Position numbers and translations under genes: made by a program | Notes under the pieces: model-generated | Database searches by the model: none | Seen by the model: the letters and a program-made list of their open reading frames with translations, nothing else | Told to the model about the DNA's origin: nothing | Part shown: one piece after another, positions 20,486 through 26,134 of the stretch | Numbering within the stretch: the stretch's first letter is position 1 | Layout of the letters: the number at the start of each line of letters is the position of its first letter | Origin: Verrucomicrobiota bacterium | GTDB taxonomy: Bacteria > Verrucomicrobiota > Verrucomicrobiia > Chthoniobacterales > SZAS-18 | NCBI GenBank assembly: GCA_019241085.1 | Contig: JAFAXH010000148.1 | Coordinates: 1-42,957 of the forward strand | Direction: 5' to 3' | DNA: 42,957 nt

Positions 20486-21529
20486 TCACCGCGCCGGCGT
20501 CGGCAGGCCGGCGGGGCGCTCGGAGAGGCGCGGCGCGCCGGGGAGCGAGCGCGACGTATCGCGCACGGGCAGGTCGCCCTCGGGCGCGCCGGACTCAACG
20601 GCGTTGCCGTCGGCGGGGGCGGCATTGGCGGCGACGCTGCTCGGCGCCTGCGGCGTGGCGTTTCTCACCACGACCTCGCCGGCGGGCGTCGCCACGAGGT
20701 TCGGGACGGCCTTGGAATCCTTCGTGAAGACCTGCCGCGCGACGCGTTCGCCGTTGAGCGAAAACTCGCTGTAAACATACGTGCGCGGCGCCGCCAGGTG
20801 CAGGACGTGCAGGTGATTCGCGCGGTCGAGCGCGACGCGCGGCTCCTCGCCGCCGGTCATGATGCGCCCGAGCGATTGCGTGGTGTAGGTGACGCCCGCC
20901 TTCACGTCGCGCACGCGGACGTAGAGCAACATGCGGTCGGGCAGCCGGTGCGCGAGGAGGGTGTATTGCCGCAGGCCGCTGCCGCCCGGCGCGTCGCCGC
21001 CGCGACCGGCGGGCACGCCGACGGTTTGCTGCCAGATCGTGCGGCCTTCCGTGAGGTCGAAGGCGACGGCGTTGGAGGAAAAGTAATGGTCGGCGTCGGC
21101 GAAATACAGGTTCGCCTTCAACCGGTAGCCGCCCGGCTCGCGCAGCGAGAAATGCGGCCCGATGTCAAACACCCGCTTCACCGTGGCGCCGGCGGGCACG
21201 GAGAGCGCCGGCAGGTGCCAATCGTTGTCCACCGGCTGCAACGGCACGCCCGATTCCTCGCCGCGCGCCGCCGCGGCCTGGTTGGCGGCGGAGGTCAATT
21301 CCACGTCGAGCCACTGCCGGCCGCCCGCGCCGTTTTCAAACACCAGGTCGCGCCCGGCGAGATTGGTGATGGCGAGGATGACTTCGACCGGCTCGTAGGG
21401 CACGAACGTAGAGCGGCGCAGCTTGATCTCGAACCGCACCTGCGCCCGCGCCGCCCCCGGCGCGAGCAACAACAGCAGCAAGAGCAAGAAGAGAAAAGGA
21501 GAACAACAAAGGCGACCACGGCTTCGCAT
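20486..21529 (-). CDS. Exported protein of unknown function
   Basis: A 347-residue protein with a strong signal peptide (SPFLFLLLLLLLLAPGAARA). The mature N-terminal half looks like a beta-sandwich of the kind found in extracellular adhesion or protease-inhibitor-like domains: IKLRRSTFVPYEPVEVILAI, AGRDLVFENGAGG and FDIGPHFSLREPGGYRLKA. The second half has YVRVRDVKAGVTYTTQSLG and ALDRANHLHVLHLA. The last 60 residues are Ala/Pro-rich and probably disordered. I do not recognise the family. Its start faces the toxin-antitoxin island; 21530-21687 holds nothing I can identify. Confidence 0.8.
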   Translation of the reverse strand: MRSRGRLCCSPFLFLLLLLLLLAPGAARAQVRFEIKLRRSTFVPYEPVEVILAITNLAGRDLVFENGAGGRQWLDVELTSAANQAAAARGEESGVPLQPVDNDWHLPALSVPAGATVKRVFDIGPHFSLREPGGYRLKANLYFADADHYFSSNAVAFDLTEGRTIWQQTVGVPAGRGGDAPGGSGLRQYTLLAHRLPDRMLLYVRVRDVKAGVTYTTQSLGRIMTGGEEPRVALDRANHLHVLHLAAPRTYVYSEFSLNGERVARQVFTKDSKAVPNLVATPAGEVVVRNATPQAPSSVAANAAPADGNAVESGAPEGDLPVRDTSRSLPGAPRLSERPAGLPTPAR

Positions 21530-22364: not shown

Positions 22365-22693
22365 TTACTTAAAGACAGCGAGCACCGCGTCCCGAATTCT
22401 CTGGAACGCCTGCGGCTGGAGCCGTCCGACCTCGGCCGTGAAAAGGCTCTGGTGGGCTGTGAAGAGTTTCGCTGGCCGGGCGTAGCTGACGAGCCGCAGG
22501 CCGCCGGCGGCAAAATCGCCGGCCGCGAGTGGCTCGGAGTGCGCATCGCCGTAAGGCTGGCTGGTGACTTGGCACAGCACCCAATCCCCGCGGTCGGCGG
22601 AGGCCAGCACCACCGCCGGACGCAGCTTGGACTCGTGAGATCGGAGAACGGGAACGGGACGAGAACTACCGAGCCTGCTGAAGGTATGACCAT
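22365..22693 (-). pseudogene. mazF: MazF/PemK-like toxin, frameshifted
   Basis: Remnant of a MazF/PemK endoribonuclease. The first frame starts at the ATG at 22693 and gives VIPSAGSVVLVPFPFSDLT, the family's beta-1 segment. The rest lies one frame over: SKLRPAVVLASADRGDWVLC, QVTSQPYGD, VSYARPAKLFTAHQSLF and VGRLQPQAFQRIRDAV. A single missing base around 22632-22637 accounts for the break, between SDLT and SKLRPAVV. Restored, the protein would be about 110 residues, normal for the family. It overlaps its antitoxin gene by 28 bases. A sequencing error cannot be excluded. Confidence 0.8.
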
Positions 22694-22887
22694 GCCGCTT
22701 CCTCCTCCGGGCGATCCCAATCCTCCGCAAGCGCACGCTCGCTCAGCAGCGCCGTCTCGTGAACGCCCGCAGCCGGCTCCTCGTCGAGGATGGTGACAAG
22801 CGCCCGGTGGCTGCGCGCCACCCGCACAGGCTCCAAGAGTCGCACGCTCCCCCGCTCGTCAATTACGGCTTCCACCGTCTGCATCAT
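22666..22887 (-). CDS. MazF-associated antitoxin
   Basis: A 73-residue protein, MMQTVEAVIDERGSVRLLEP, followed by VRVARSHRALVTILDEEP and an acidic C-terminal tail (EDWDRPEEEAAWSYLQ). The short beta-rich N terminus with an acidic helical tail is the layout of small antitoxins that precede MazF/PemK genes. The Met-Met at 22887/22884 is the natural start; an upstream extension would run through the palindrome at 22943. It is intact, unlike the toxin. Confidence 0.75.
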   Translation of the reverse strand: MMQTVEAVIDERGSVRLLEPVRVARSHRALVTILDEEPAAGVHETALLSERALAEDWDRPEEEAAWSYLQQAR

Positions 22888-22942
22888 GAGGCTCAGCGTA
22901 GCTTTTTCGCGAGATGCGCGCAATCGCCGAACTATTGTTCGT

Positions 22943-22971
22943 CTCGTTCCTAAGTGCAACTTGGGAGCGAG
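22943..22971. repeat. CTCGTTCCCAAG palindrome, copy 2
   Basis: The 29-base palindrome has arms CTCGTTCCTAAGT and ACTTGGGAGCGAG, same family as 22286-22315 and in reverse orientation relative to it. It lies 56 bases upstream of the antitoxin start, so together the copies frame the MazE/MazF module. Confidence 0.7.
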
Positions 22972-22991
22972 GAGAACGGCGCGATTGATAA

Positions 22992-23546
22992 CTAGGAGGG
23001 GACGACTGCCCTAGGCGGCGCCGGGGCGTTTCTCTGAAGTTTGACGGAGCGTCGGAGGCACGCTGCCGCCGCAAAGGGCGGCGGCAGCCCTTTGTCATCC
23101 CGAGCGGAGTCGAGGGACCTCTTATTGATTGTCTGGCTCGCAGGACACCCGCTGCTAGCCAAGGCAAATAGCAAGAGGTCCCTCGACTTCGCTCGGGATG
23201 ACAGGAAGGAAAGCCCGGCGCGCAAGCGGCACCAGCGGGCGCCTGTGCGCTGGAGCGCGTGATAAGCCGCCGTCTGTTTGGTTGAAACCTCAAAACAATG
23301 ATAGGAACCGGCTACGGATATAGGGCGGACTTGAACAACCGAGTATGCAGTTCCTGTAACTAAGTTTTTTACCTGATCACCGGTCTTGATGGGAAACTCA
23401 TCCGAAAACTTGAATGTAGTAAGGCCAGTCTTACGGTCCTCCTTCATCAATGCCTTCCTAGTTTCGCCTCCTTGGCAATCTGTGCCAGCATCAGCAAGCG
23501 TATCGAGGAAAGCAGCACGAAAATCATCTCCAATTTCGTTACTCAT
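22992..23546 (-). CDS. Orphan protein whose 3' part is a repeat
   Basis: The reading frame is 184 residues, but only about the first 105 look like a genuine protein (MSNEIGDDFRAAFLDTLADA, then EFPIKTGDQVKNLVTGTAYS and SYHCFEVSTKQTAAYHALQ). I do not recognise it. From about residue 115 on, the translation (SSRAKSRDLL and RSLDSARDDKG) is simply the inverted repeat at 23093-23203 read through. So the native C terminus has probably been lost or replaced. Base composition in 23270-23640 is lower in GC than the surroundings, hinting at transferred DNA. The ATG at 23546 is the only reasonable start. Confidence 0.5.
   Translation of the reverse strand: MSNEIGDDFRAAFLDTLADAGTDCQGGETRKALMKEDRKTGLTTFKFSDEFPIKTGDQVKNLVTGTAYSVVQVRPISVAGSYHCFEVSTKQTAAYHALQRTGARWCRLRAGLSFLSSRAKSRDLLLFALASSGCPASQTINKRSLDSARDDKGLPPPFAAAACLRRSVKLQRNAPAPPRAVVPS
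23063..23087. repeat. GC-rich perfect hairpin
   Basis: CTGCCGCCGC and GCGGCGGCAG pair perfectly around a 5-base loop (AAAGG). It sits 5 bases from the 23093-23203 inverted repeat and may be part of the same element. No T tract follows on either strand, so a terminator is not supported. Confidence 0.6.
23093..23203. repeat. TGTCATCCCGAGCG inverted-repeat element
   Basis: Arms of 31 bases at 23093-23123 and 23173-23203 match at 30 positions (outer end TGTCATCCCGAGCGGAGTCG), enclosing 49 bases. I recognise this as a type of intergenic repeat that is common in many bacterial genomes and often mis-translated as SSRAKSRD or RSLDSARDDK. The element has interrupted the 3' end of the small gene at 23546. 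Confidence 0.9.
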
Positions 23547-23692: not shown

Positions 23693-26134
23693 CTATTTCT
23701 TATCCCCACCCCCCGCCGGCGGCGCGTCGCCCACGGTGCGGAAGCCGATCTGCTCGCTGCTTTGCAACGTCATCAGGAAACCGGTCGTGCGCTTCGTCGT
23801 CTCGAAGCCGCGCGAGCCGTAGCTGCCGCCGCGGATGATCGGGTGCAGCTTGTCGGAAAAATCGGCGGTCCATTCGGCCACGTTGCCGGCCAGGTCCATG
23901 ACGCCATACGGGCTGCGGTCGCCGGTCATGGCATCGACGGGCGACCAGCGGTTGTAGCCATCGACCTCGCCTTTTTGGCGCGGGTCTTCGTGGTAGTCGG
24001 CGGCGGTGTTGACCTTGGTAATCGCCTGCGGGTCGTTGCCCCACGGGAAGCGCCGGCCATCGGTGCCGCGGGCGGCTTTTTCCCATTCCTTCTCGGTCGG
24101 CAGCCGCCGGCCGCGCCATTTCGCATAGGCGTAGGCGTCGAACCAATCGACGTAGAAGACGGGGCAGTTCAGGTCGAGCGGGGCGCCGTTGTAATTGCCG
24201 CCGCGCCGGGCGGCGGCGTAAAAAACGTCCCAGTGCGCGTCTTTATGGGATTTGCCCTTGGGCTGGTCGGGATGGTCGATGCGGGCGGCGAGGCTGGGGT
24301 CCTGGTCAAGGGCGGCGAGGAACTCGGCGTATTGGCCGATGGTAACTTCGTATTGGTCGATCCAGACGGGGTGGTCGAGCGTGGCGGTCTGGTTGTCCTG
24401 GTAGATGAAATCGCCGGCGGGAATCTCGATGGTGTGAGTGAAAGTCTTCGCCGCCGGGGCGCGCAAAAACTTCCACCAGATGACCGCGCCGACGAGCCAG
24501 AAGACGAGGAAGATGCCGAGGCCGCTGAGGACGAGGGCGCGCTGGCTGCGGCGCTTGGCTTCGGCGATGGCGGCCATCGCGCGGCGTTCCTGTTCGCCGA
24601 GGGCGCGGGCATCCTTCGGGGCGGCTTTGGGTTCGAGCGCCTTGACGGCTTGCAGCAGCGCGGCCCAGCTCAGGAAGCCGCTCTGGCCTTGGAGCGTCAT
24701 GCGGCTAAAGAGGGCGCGCACCTCGGGCGTGGCCGCCTGCCGCCCGGGCAGGCAATCGCTCACGGCTTGCGCGAGCCGGCGGATGTCGTCCTGCGGCGGC
24801 GGCGTGCCAGTGCCGGGCAGGTCGGCGAAGTTGTTCAGCCGCGGCCGGCCCTCGCGCCCGAGGTAGATGCCGCGGGCGGAGAGCGGCGCGCGGTCGATTT
24901 TATTTTGATTTAAATACGTGAGCGCCTCGGCGACGACGCGCACGACGCGCAGGGCGGCCGGGTCGTCGAGCGTGCGCCCCTGGGCATGGAGGTCGGCGAG
25001 GGTGTCGCCTTCGACAAATTCCCGCGCGTAGTAAATCCGGTCGTCGGACTGGCCGACTTCATACACGGCGAGGATGGAGGGATGCTGGACGTTGGCGCGG
25101 ACGCGGGCGCGGTCCAGGAATGTCTGCGCGGCGGCGGCGTCGCTGGCGGCGGCTGTCGCCAGCGTCTTCAGGGCCACCTTGCGGCCGACGGAGGTCTGCA
25201 CCGCCTCGAAAACTTCGCCTTCGTCGTCTTTGCCGAGCAGGCGGTTGAGCGCAAACGGCCCGAGGGTTTGTCCGGCCAATTCGCCTGCGCCGGCGGCGGC
25301 CTCCGACGCGGCGGCTTCCTCGGCGGCGCCGGCCCCCGCCTCGTCGCGCCGCCGGGCGCTTTCCATGAGGAGATGCTGCCAGCTTGCGTGGATGGTGCGC
25401 GCCTCGGGCTGGAGGCTGTCTTCAAAGGAAAACTGCCCGTTGGCCCAGCCGACGATGGCATAGACAGCGGCTTCGCCGGAATGCTCGCCCGCCACGGCGT
25501 GAACGATCTCGCCGTTGGCCAGATAGAGAATCCCGCGCTCGCGGGCGTTGCGGGAGACGACCATGCGGCCGGTGCGTTTGCCGAGGCAGCACATCTGCAC
25601 GATGTCGGCGAGGTCGAACTGCGCGAGCTGGCCGCTGAAGCCCGGCTTTTGCACGAGCGTGCGGATGCGCGCGGATTGGGATTGCGGCCGGCCGCCGCCG
25701 CTGCCGTCGTCGGGCAGCACGATGCTCGACGCGGTGCGCCTGCGGTCCAAGGGCGCGGCTTTTTCCGGCGCGAGATAGGGCGTGACCACCGGCGGCGGCA
25801 GGGCGGCCAGCACGGCGGCGGGGTCCGTCGGCTTCAGCAACACGGGGCTGCCGGCGGTGTAATCGGCGTAGGCGCTCAGGTCGTAGCCGGTCAGGTAGAT
25901 CGTGTGCAAGGCCGGTTGCGCGGCGCGCAGGCGTTCCCGCAGCCGGAAGCCGTCCATCTTTTCCATGACGACCTCGGTGATGAGCACGTCGGGCAGCCCC
26001 GCCTCGCCTTGCGCCAAGGCCAGCGCCTGCGCGCCGCCCGCCGCGGTGCGCACCTCGTGGGGCGTGGCGACGCGCAAGGCGTGCGCGAGCGACTCGGCGT
26101 TCTCCAGTTGCTCATCGACGATCAGGATTTTCAT
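23693..26134 (-). CDS. Receiver-DUF4388-pseudokinase-TM-FGE-like fusion protein
   Basis: An 813-residue signalling protein. Residues 1-115 are a response-regulator receiver in which the phospho-acceptor Asp is replaced by Glu54 (LITEVVMEKMDG), while Asp7/Glu8, Thr82 and Lys101 remain. Residues 165-240 are a DUF4388 domain (FDLADIVQMCCLGKRTG, ILYLANGEIVHA). Residues 290-500 are a protein-kinase fold that keeps the beta-3 lysine (VALK, Lys323) but has IDRAPLSARGIYL in place of HRDLKPxN and NFA in place of DFG, so it is a pseudokinase. Residues 533-554 are one membrane helix. Residues 565-805 are an FGE/SUMF1-type domain (LPTEKEWEKAARG, GNVAEW, RGGSYGSRG, IGFRTV) without the catalytic cysteine pair. 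The start at 26134 puts the receiver at the N terminus. The cytoplasmic part senses and the FGE-like part is outside; this is inference. Confidence 0.9.
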   Translation of the reverse strand: MKILIVDEQLENAESLAHALRVATPHEVRTAAGGAQALALAQGEAGLPDVLITEVVMEKMDGFRLRERLRAAQPALHTIYLTGYDLSAYADYTAGSPVLLKPTDPAAVLAALPPPVVTPYLAPEKAAPLDRRRTASSIVLPDDGSGGGRPQSQSARIRTLVQKPGFSGQLAQFDLADIVQMCCLGKRTGRMVVSRNARERGILYLANGEIVHAVAGEHSGEAAVYAIVGWANGQFSFEDSLQPEARTIHASWQHLLMESARRRDEAGAGAAEEAAASEAAAGAGELAGQTLGPFALNRLLGKDDEGEVFEAVQTSVGRKVALKTLATAAASDAAAAQTFLDRARVRANVQHPSILAVYEVGQSDDRIYYAREFVEGDTLADLHAQGRTLDDPAALRVVRVVAEALTYLNQNKIDRAPLSARGIYLGREGRPRLNNFADLPGTGTPPPQDDIRRLAQAVSDCLPGRQAATPEVRALFSRMTLQGQSGFLSWAALLQAVKALEPKAAPKDARALGEQERRAMAAIAEAKRRSQRALVLSGLGIFLVFWLVGAVIWWKFLRAPAAKTFTHTIEIPAGDFIYQDNQTATLDHPVWIDQYEVTIGQYAEFLAALDQDPSLAARIDHPDQPKGKSHKDAHWDVFYAAARRGGNYNGAPLDLNCPVFYVDWFDAYAYAKWRGRRLPTEKEWEKAARGTDGRRFPWGNDPQAITKVNTAADYHEDPRQKGEVDGYNRWSPVDAMTGDRSPYGVMDLAGNVAEWTADFSDKLHPIIRGGSYGSRGFETTKRTTGFLMTLQSSEQIGFRTVGDAPPAGGGDKK

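Follow-up and report, generated by a model that had tools for sequence, protein, structure and literature searches.

A putative non-catalytic transmembrane pseudokinase scaffold in a conserved gene neighbourhood of Verrucomicrobiota

One open reading frame of a Verrucomicrobiota bacterium (Chthoniobacterales; SZAS-18) was predicted to join a receiver, a DUF4388 domain, a pseudokinase, a membrane helix and a domain resembling formylglycine-generating enzyme (FGE) in one chain with every catalytic centre disabled, which raises the questions of whether this protein, hereafter F0, is a decayed copy of an active enzyme or a member of a non-catalytic family, and what such a family would do. Bacterial pseudokinases have been little studied experimentally. 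The frame lies in the window, i.e., the whole stretch of 42,957 nt that was analysed (contig JAFAXH010000148.1 of assembly GCA_019241085.1), and the genome assemblies used for comparison were mostly MAGs.

The F0 gene (23693..26134, minus strand), delimited by its open frame and by full-length homologues, is stop-free over 813 codons from 26134 to 23693. Pfam models were matched in the order Response_reg, DUF4388, Pkinase and FGE-sulfatase, with one transmembrane helix between the last two. On the minus strand these correspond to a receiver domain at aa 3-107 (25814..26128; PF00072, 6e-12; AlphaFold2 pLDDT about 85), a PATAN-type DUF4388 domain at aa 167-266 (25337..25636; PF14332, 8e-22, with 77.9 bits against a gathering score of 25), a pseudokinase domain at aa 289-505 (24620..25270; Pfam, Foldseek and alignment), a helix at aa 537-557 preceded by Lys/Arg (24464..24526; hydropathy and AlphaFold2) and an FGE-like domain at aa 567-801 (23732..24436; PF03781, 1e-37). 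Structure prediction, which had been proposed as a check, recovered the receiver and kinase folds confidently (pLDDT about 80-90), as well as the helix and the N-terminal half of the FGE domain. Confidence was low for DUF4388 and for the C-terminal end of the FGE domain in this model, which was built from an alignment only 10 sequences deep. The domain chain was thus borne out by Pfam, AlphaFold2 and hydropathy, and from hydropathy and the one moderate AlphaFold2 model the N-terminus is predicted to be inside and the FGE domain outside the cytoplasm.

This order of domains had been thought to be unseen elsewhere, yet all five domains occur in the same order in four other genomes (L002, L004, L005, L006). 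The majority of the other relatives have a receiver-kinase-transmembrane-FGE arrangement without DUF4388, often with an Ala/Pro-rich linker in its place. Full-length relatives, with 31-53% identity across the chain, were found in the same order (Chthoniobacterales) and in Verrucomicrobiales, including Chthoniobacter, Chthoniobacteraceae, Spartobacteria and Verrucomicrobiaceae. Of the 57 genomes of the order covered by profile searches, 34 carry F0, and it is also present in other families of the class (f15, f18). Two loci carry an extra frame of the F0 sequence cluster elsewhere in the locus (L121:11240-13117 and L124:2-1411). No paper on the F0 family was found in the literature covered, which leaves out most subscription journals.

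The kinase-like fold of F0 is recognised by PF00069 and PF07714 and by Foldseek, which returned PknA, PknB and Aurora kinases with E about 1e-13; the Pkinase match (aa 296-413, 9e-13) spans just positions 3-119 of the 263 of the profile. Where HRDLKPxN would be expected F0 has IDRAPLSARGIYL (aa 412-424), with R-A-P at the HRD position itself (aa 415-417, 24884..24892, minus strand), and at the DFG position it has N-F-A (aa 435-437, 24824..24832, minus strand). Among 43 kinase-domain sequences aligned, the HRD Asp is absent in 42, the site reading H or R, then a mixed position, then P, A or L. The DFG Asp is likewise replaced by Asn (N435 in F0) in 42/43, most of them with an N-x-A motif. N435 and helix F are separated by only 11-13 residues in 43/43 sequences, which means that the activation segment is deleted in every one of them. 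The FGE-like domain is the best-conserved part of F0 (48-62% identity), and a PDB sequence search placed human SUMF2 first (1y4j, 8e-20), followed by FGE-type enzymes; the active-site cysteine pair is absent at its expected position from the window protein and from all 41 aligned FGE domains. All residues singled out in the original prediction (Glu54, Lys323, IDRAPLSARGIYL, NFA at 435-437 and the missing cysteine pair) were found where it had placed them. Since the motif losses of the kinase and the FGE domain are family-wide, both domains were dead already at the root of the family, and the losses are ancestral. Judged from sequence, the window pseudokinase should not transfer phosphate, as it lacks the HRD Asp, the DFG Asp and the activation segment.

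For the receiver the picture is different, and here the claim that all catalytic centres are disabled holds for the kinase and FGE domains only. The phospho-acceptor position of the window receiver is Glu54 (codon 25973..25975, minus strand), and the rest of the active site is kept (acidic pair D7/E8, T82, K101). Position 54 is Asp in 18 and Glu in 12 of about 36 receivers, a count that includes one (L134) that is probably no real receiver, with A, Q or N in others; the complete active site is present in 16 of about 36 homologues. In the window's family (f1) the acceptor site is Glu wherever seen (L001, L002, L007, L018, L160). On a tree built from the kinase and FGE columns, with the receiver excluded, the change between Asp and non-Asp occurred at least seven times. 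Glu54 need not mimic phosphorylation, and a phospho-like lock of the receiver is one possibility. DUF4388 is limited to the close clade L001-L006 (plus L018) and to separate receiver-DUF4388 proteins of another family (f8).

Clustering of the flanking frames identified two partners of F0, F2 upstream and F3 downstream. F2 (P0002; 26268..27614, minus strand) has an N-terminal transmembrane segment, a Pro/Ala-rich linker, TPR and a C-terminal beta region; its TPR match is weak and it matched no other Pfam or NCBIfam family. It corresponds to the TPR-like membrane protein said to follow F0: it is on the same strand, but comes after F0 only in plus-strand coordinates and is upstream (5') by transcription. 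F3 (21529..20486, minus strand), which was absent from the original prediction, has a signal peptide and two beta domains and matched no Pfam or NCBIfam family. Using profile searches in the 57 relatives with positions read from coordinates, F2 was found immediately 5' of F0 in 29 of the 34 F0-carrying genomes of the order (two, G005 and G020, stop at contig ends) and F3 immediately 3' in 30 of the 34. The linkage of F0 and F3 is lost in G004, G006 and G019, where F3 lies elsewhere; in the window F3 is on the same contig 2.2 kb away, separated by an insert. The three genes lie on one strand, usually touching or with a few tens of bases between them, and F2 and F3 are adjacent even where F0 is lacking (f7, f13; genomes G028, G038, G045, G056 and G013). 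The window insert carries a PemK/MazF-like toxin gene outside the F2-F0-F3 system (22365..22736, minus strand; PF02452, 3e-5, barely above cut-off) and a frame at 22992-23546 that matched no Pfam family. At about 22860-23300 there are frames with CHPERSRGTS- and SSRAKSRDLL-type peptides, which resemble dispersed palindromic repeats and may mark an insertion.

The gene between F2 and F3 varies in its modules. In f8 a frame of 230-370 aa encoding a receiver-DUF4388 protein occupies this place in 5/6 genomes, and in f15 the middle gene encodes a pseudokinase-transmembrane-FGE protein that lacks the receiver and in some cases has a degenerate FGE part. One and the same locus can therefore host receiver-DUF4388, receiver-pseudokinase-transmembrane-FGE, pseudokinase-transmembrane-FGE or, as in the window, all of these modules. 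As the f8 middle gene encodes a receiver-DUF4388 protein, the window F0 combines in one chain modules that occur at a single locus across families. The f8 proteins (L151, L167, L168, L169, L170) have Gln at the acceptor site, which makes them pseudo-receivers.

Parts of this architecture have counterparts in known systems. The pseudokinases EssB/YukC, a structural part of the type VIIb secretion system (T7SSb; PMC12599244), resemble F0 in having a cytoplasmic dead kinase fold, one transmembrane helix and an extracytoplasmic part, a likeness drawn from descriptions (PMC12599244 and general knowledge); unlike F0 they have no receiver, DUF4388 or FGE domain, and none of the genes around F0 was recognised as belonging to a T7SS. 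The FGE domain had been presented as a notable disabled enzyme. FGE folds without the cysteine pair are, however, known elsewhere, e.g., from PorK, GldK and GldJ, that of PorK serving as a docking hub (PMC12421860). SUMF2 and formylglycine-generating enzyme differ from F0, in which the FGE domain is fused to a membrane pseudokinase and has no such pair. PorK, GldK and GldJ, which belong to type IX secretion (T9SS) and gliding, share with F0 the cysteine-free fold outside the cytoplasm, yet they are lipoproteins from another phylum with no kinase or receiver, and F0 scored 47.3 bits with the NCBIfam GldK model TIGR03525, below its cut-off of 350. The cyanobacterial PATAN/DUF4388 regulators PatA, PixG, PilG and TaxP2 also join a receiver to DUF4388 (PMC10519157, PMC7380572), which the stand-alone receiver-DUF4388 gene of f8 resembles; in F0 DUF4388 comes after rather than before the receiver and is fused to pseudokinase, membrane helix and FGE domain in a membrane-bound protein. 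Seven bacterial pseudokinase families have been annotated (ActPs1-3, GLW, CP1, DYD, DLHK), five of which, like F0, are divergent in all three catalytic motifs and often membrane-linked (PMC12599244). By the definitions of that review GLW replaces HRD in the GLW family, where F0 has a different HRD site, and CP1 has no transmembrane segment and a linked COG3899 domain, where F0 has the helix 537-557 and other domains; the N-x-A motif and the deleted activation segment are absent from the descriptions of GLW and CP1 consulted. The terms Verrucomicrobi-, FGE/sulfatase, receiver and DUF4388 do not occur in the review (PMC12599244). F0 would thus belong to a known kind, the transmembrane pseudokinase scaffold, in a combination with FGE, receiver and DUF4388 that is absent from the review.

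Our preferred reading, to which we assign a probability of roughly 55%, is that F0 is a non-catalytic transmembrane scaffold and the middle member of a conserved F2-F0-F3 envelope module. The linking of cytoplasm and exterior by a non-catalytic scaffold had been part of the original prediction and is supported; the loss of HRD and DFG across homologues shows that the window copy is no decayed active kinase. F2 and the secreted F3 may be partners in a complex on the outer side of the cytoplasmic membrane. This is the simplest reading, as F3 is exported and both F2 and the FGE-like domain are predicted to be extracytoplasmic. The FGE-like domain would dock onto this complex as the cysteine-free FGE fold of PorK docks PorN, and the pseudokinase would provide a binding platform in the cytoplasm. 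The receiver, whose active site is intact in many relatives, may have been the original on/off input, which the replacement of Asp54 by Glu in the window's family would fix, perhaps in a phospho-like state. DUF4388 may add a further protein-binding surface, and receiver and DUF4388 would act as exchangeable inputs; we infer the physical complex, the docking, the fixed state of the receiver and any direction of signalling.

Three other explanations were weighed against the scaffold. That the window F0 is merely a decayed kinase and response regulator could appeal to Glu54 at the acceptor site and to the insert with the PemK-like gene that disturbs the locus, and it had been proposed that canonical residues in homologues would point to decay. 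Such residues were found in the receiver (Asp in 18 homologues) and not at the HRD and DFG sites of the kinase, and among the 43 homologues none was seen in which HRD, DFG and receiver Asp are intact together at the F0 locus. Identical motif losses throughout the class, the strong sequence conservation and the intact 813-codon frame make decay very improbable, and we rejected it on the family-wide loss; the homologue search that had been suggested shows that F0 is not an isolated case and has not decayed in this genome, its kinase losses recurring in 42 or all of the 43 homologues. A more serious proposal is that the pseudokinase binds ATP and acts as a nucleotide-dependent conformational switch instead of a passive scaffold, the receiver being insulated from it. 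The window's clade retains the beta-3 lysine (Lys323 in F0; 25166..25168, minus strand, from the alignment) and some of the glycine loop, and the window F0 may therefore still bind nucleotide. Against this the DFG Asp is Asn and the helix-C Glu is absent from the window protein, and the lysine occurs in 10/43 sequences, all of one clade, the other 33 having another residue. In the majority of relatives this site is occupied by H, V, Y or E while the gene neighbourhood is unchanged. What the F0 family conserves is therefore something other than ATP binding, and we regard the switch as unlikely.

We hold it equally doubtful that the FGE-like domain is an extracytoplasmic, lectin-like ligand sensor which signals inward via the pseudokinase to a receiver and DUF4388 controlling, e.g., type IV pili. 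Such a receptor would agree with the conservation of the FGE-like domain as the best-conserved part of F0, with the binding of PATAN domains to the pilus motor PilB in cyanobacteria, as cited in PMC10519157, and with the interaction of PatA with divisome proteins (PMC7380572). Most F0 proteins, however, lack DUF4388, none of the conserved neighbours was recognised as a pilus gene, and the adjacency of F2 and F3 suggests a complex outside the cell membrane, as the scaffold reading supposes. With a class-wide pseudokinase family, a uniform pattern of losses and fixed gene partners, the role of F0 is open to genetic testing.

The three genes differ in their distribution. Matches to the F0 model were obtained in 250 of 289 genomes of the phylum, but a phylum-wide F0 was rejected, as among the other-class matches listed only model positions of about 2-170 were covered, and ordinary kinases in 25 genomes reached via non-verrucomicrobial loci also match only there; true F0 members cover the model beyond position 205 and were seen in the class only. 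F2 was found in 71/289 phylum genomes, mostly within the class. F3 was present in 199/289 (about 69%), nearly always in single copy, and is a candidate core envelope component of Verrucomicrobiota. In the 25 genomes reached via non-verrucomicrobial loci it gave one marginal match (6e-4), which was not taken as an occurrence of F3. A wider and more tentative reading, somewhat less probable than the scaffold itself, is that F2-F0-F3 may constitute an undescribed envelope machine of Verrucomicrobiota with near-universal F3, in which F0 would be a new transmembrane pseudokinase family whose receiver, DUF4388 and pseudokinase modules are swapped at a single locus as cytoplasmic inputs. The AlphaFold2 model of F3 (pLDDT 75) gave only partial PDB fold matches (best TM about 0.25-0.28), from which no fold identity was accepted, and relationships to arrestin or ForT were dismissed since the profile matches were not significant. 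By inspection of sequence, F3 adjoins a phosphoesterase and a heptosyltransferase-like gene in other classes. An N-acetylmuramoyl-L-alanine amidase (Amidase_3) gene lies 3' of F3 in L111, L112, L113, L117 and L125, followed in four of these five loci by an NAD(P)H-hydrate dehydratase (YjeF) gene, and in L118, L119, L123, L126 and L127 an HtrA/DegP-like protease gene, as read from its sequence, lies 5' of F2.
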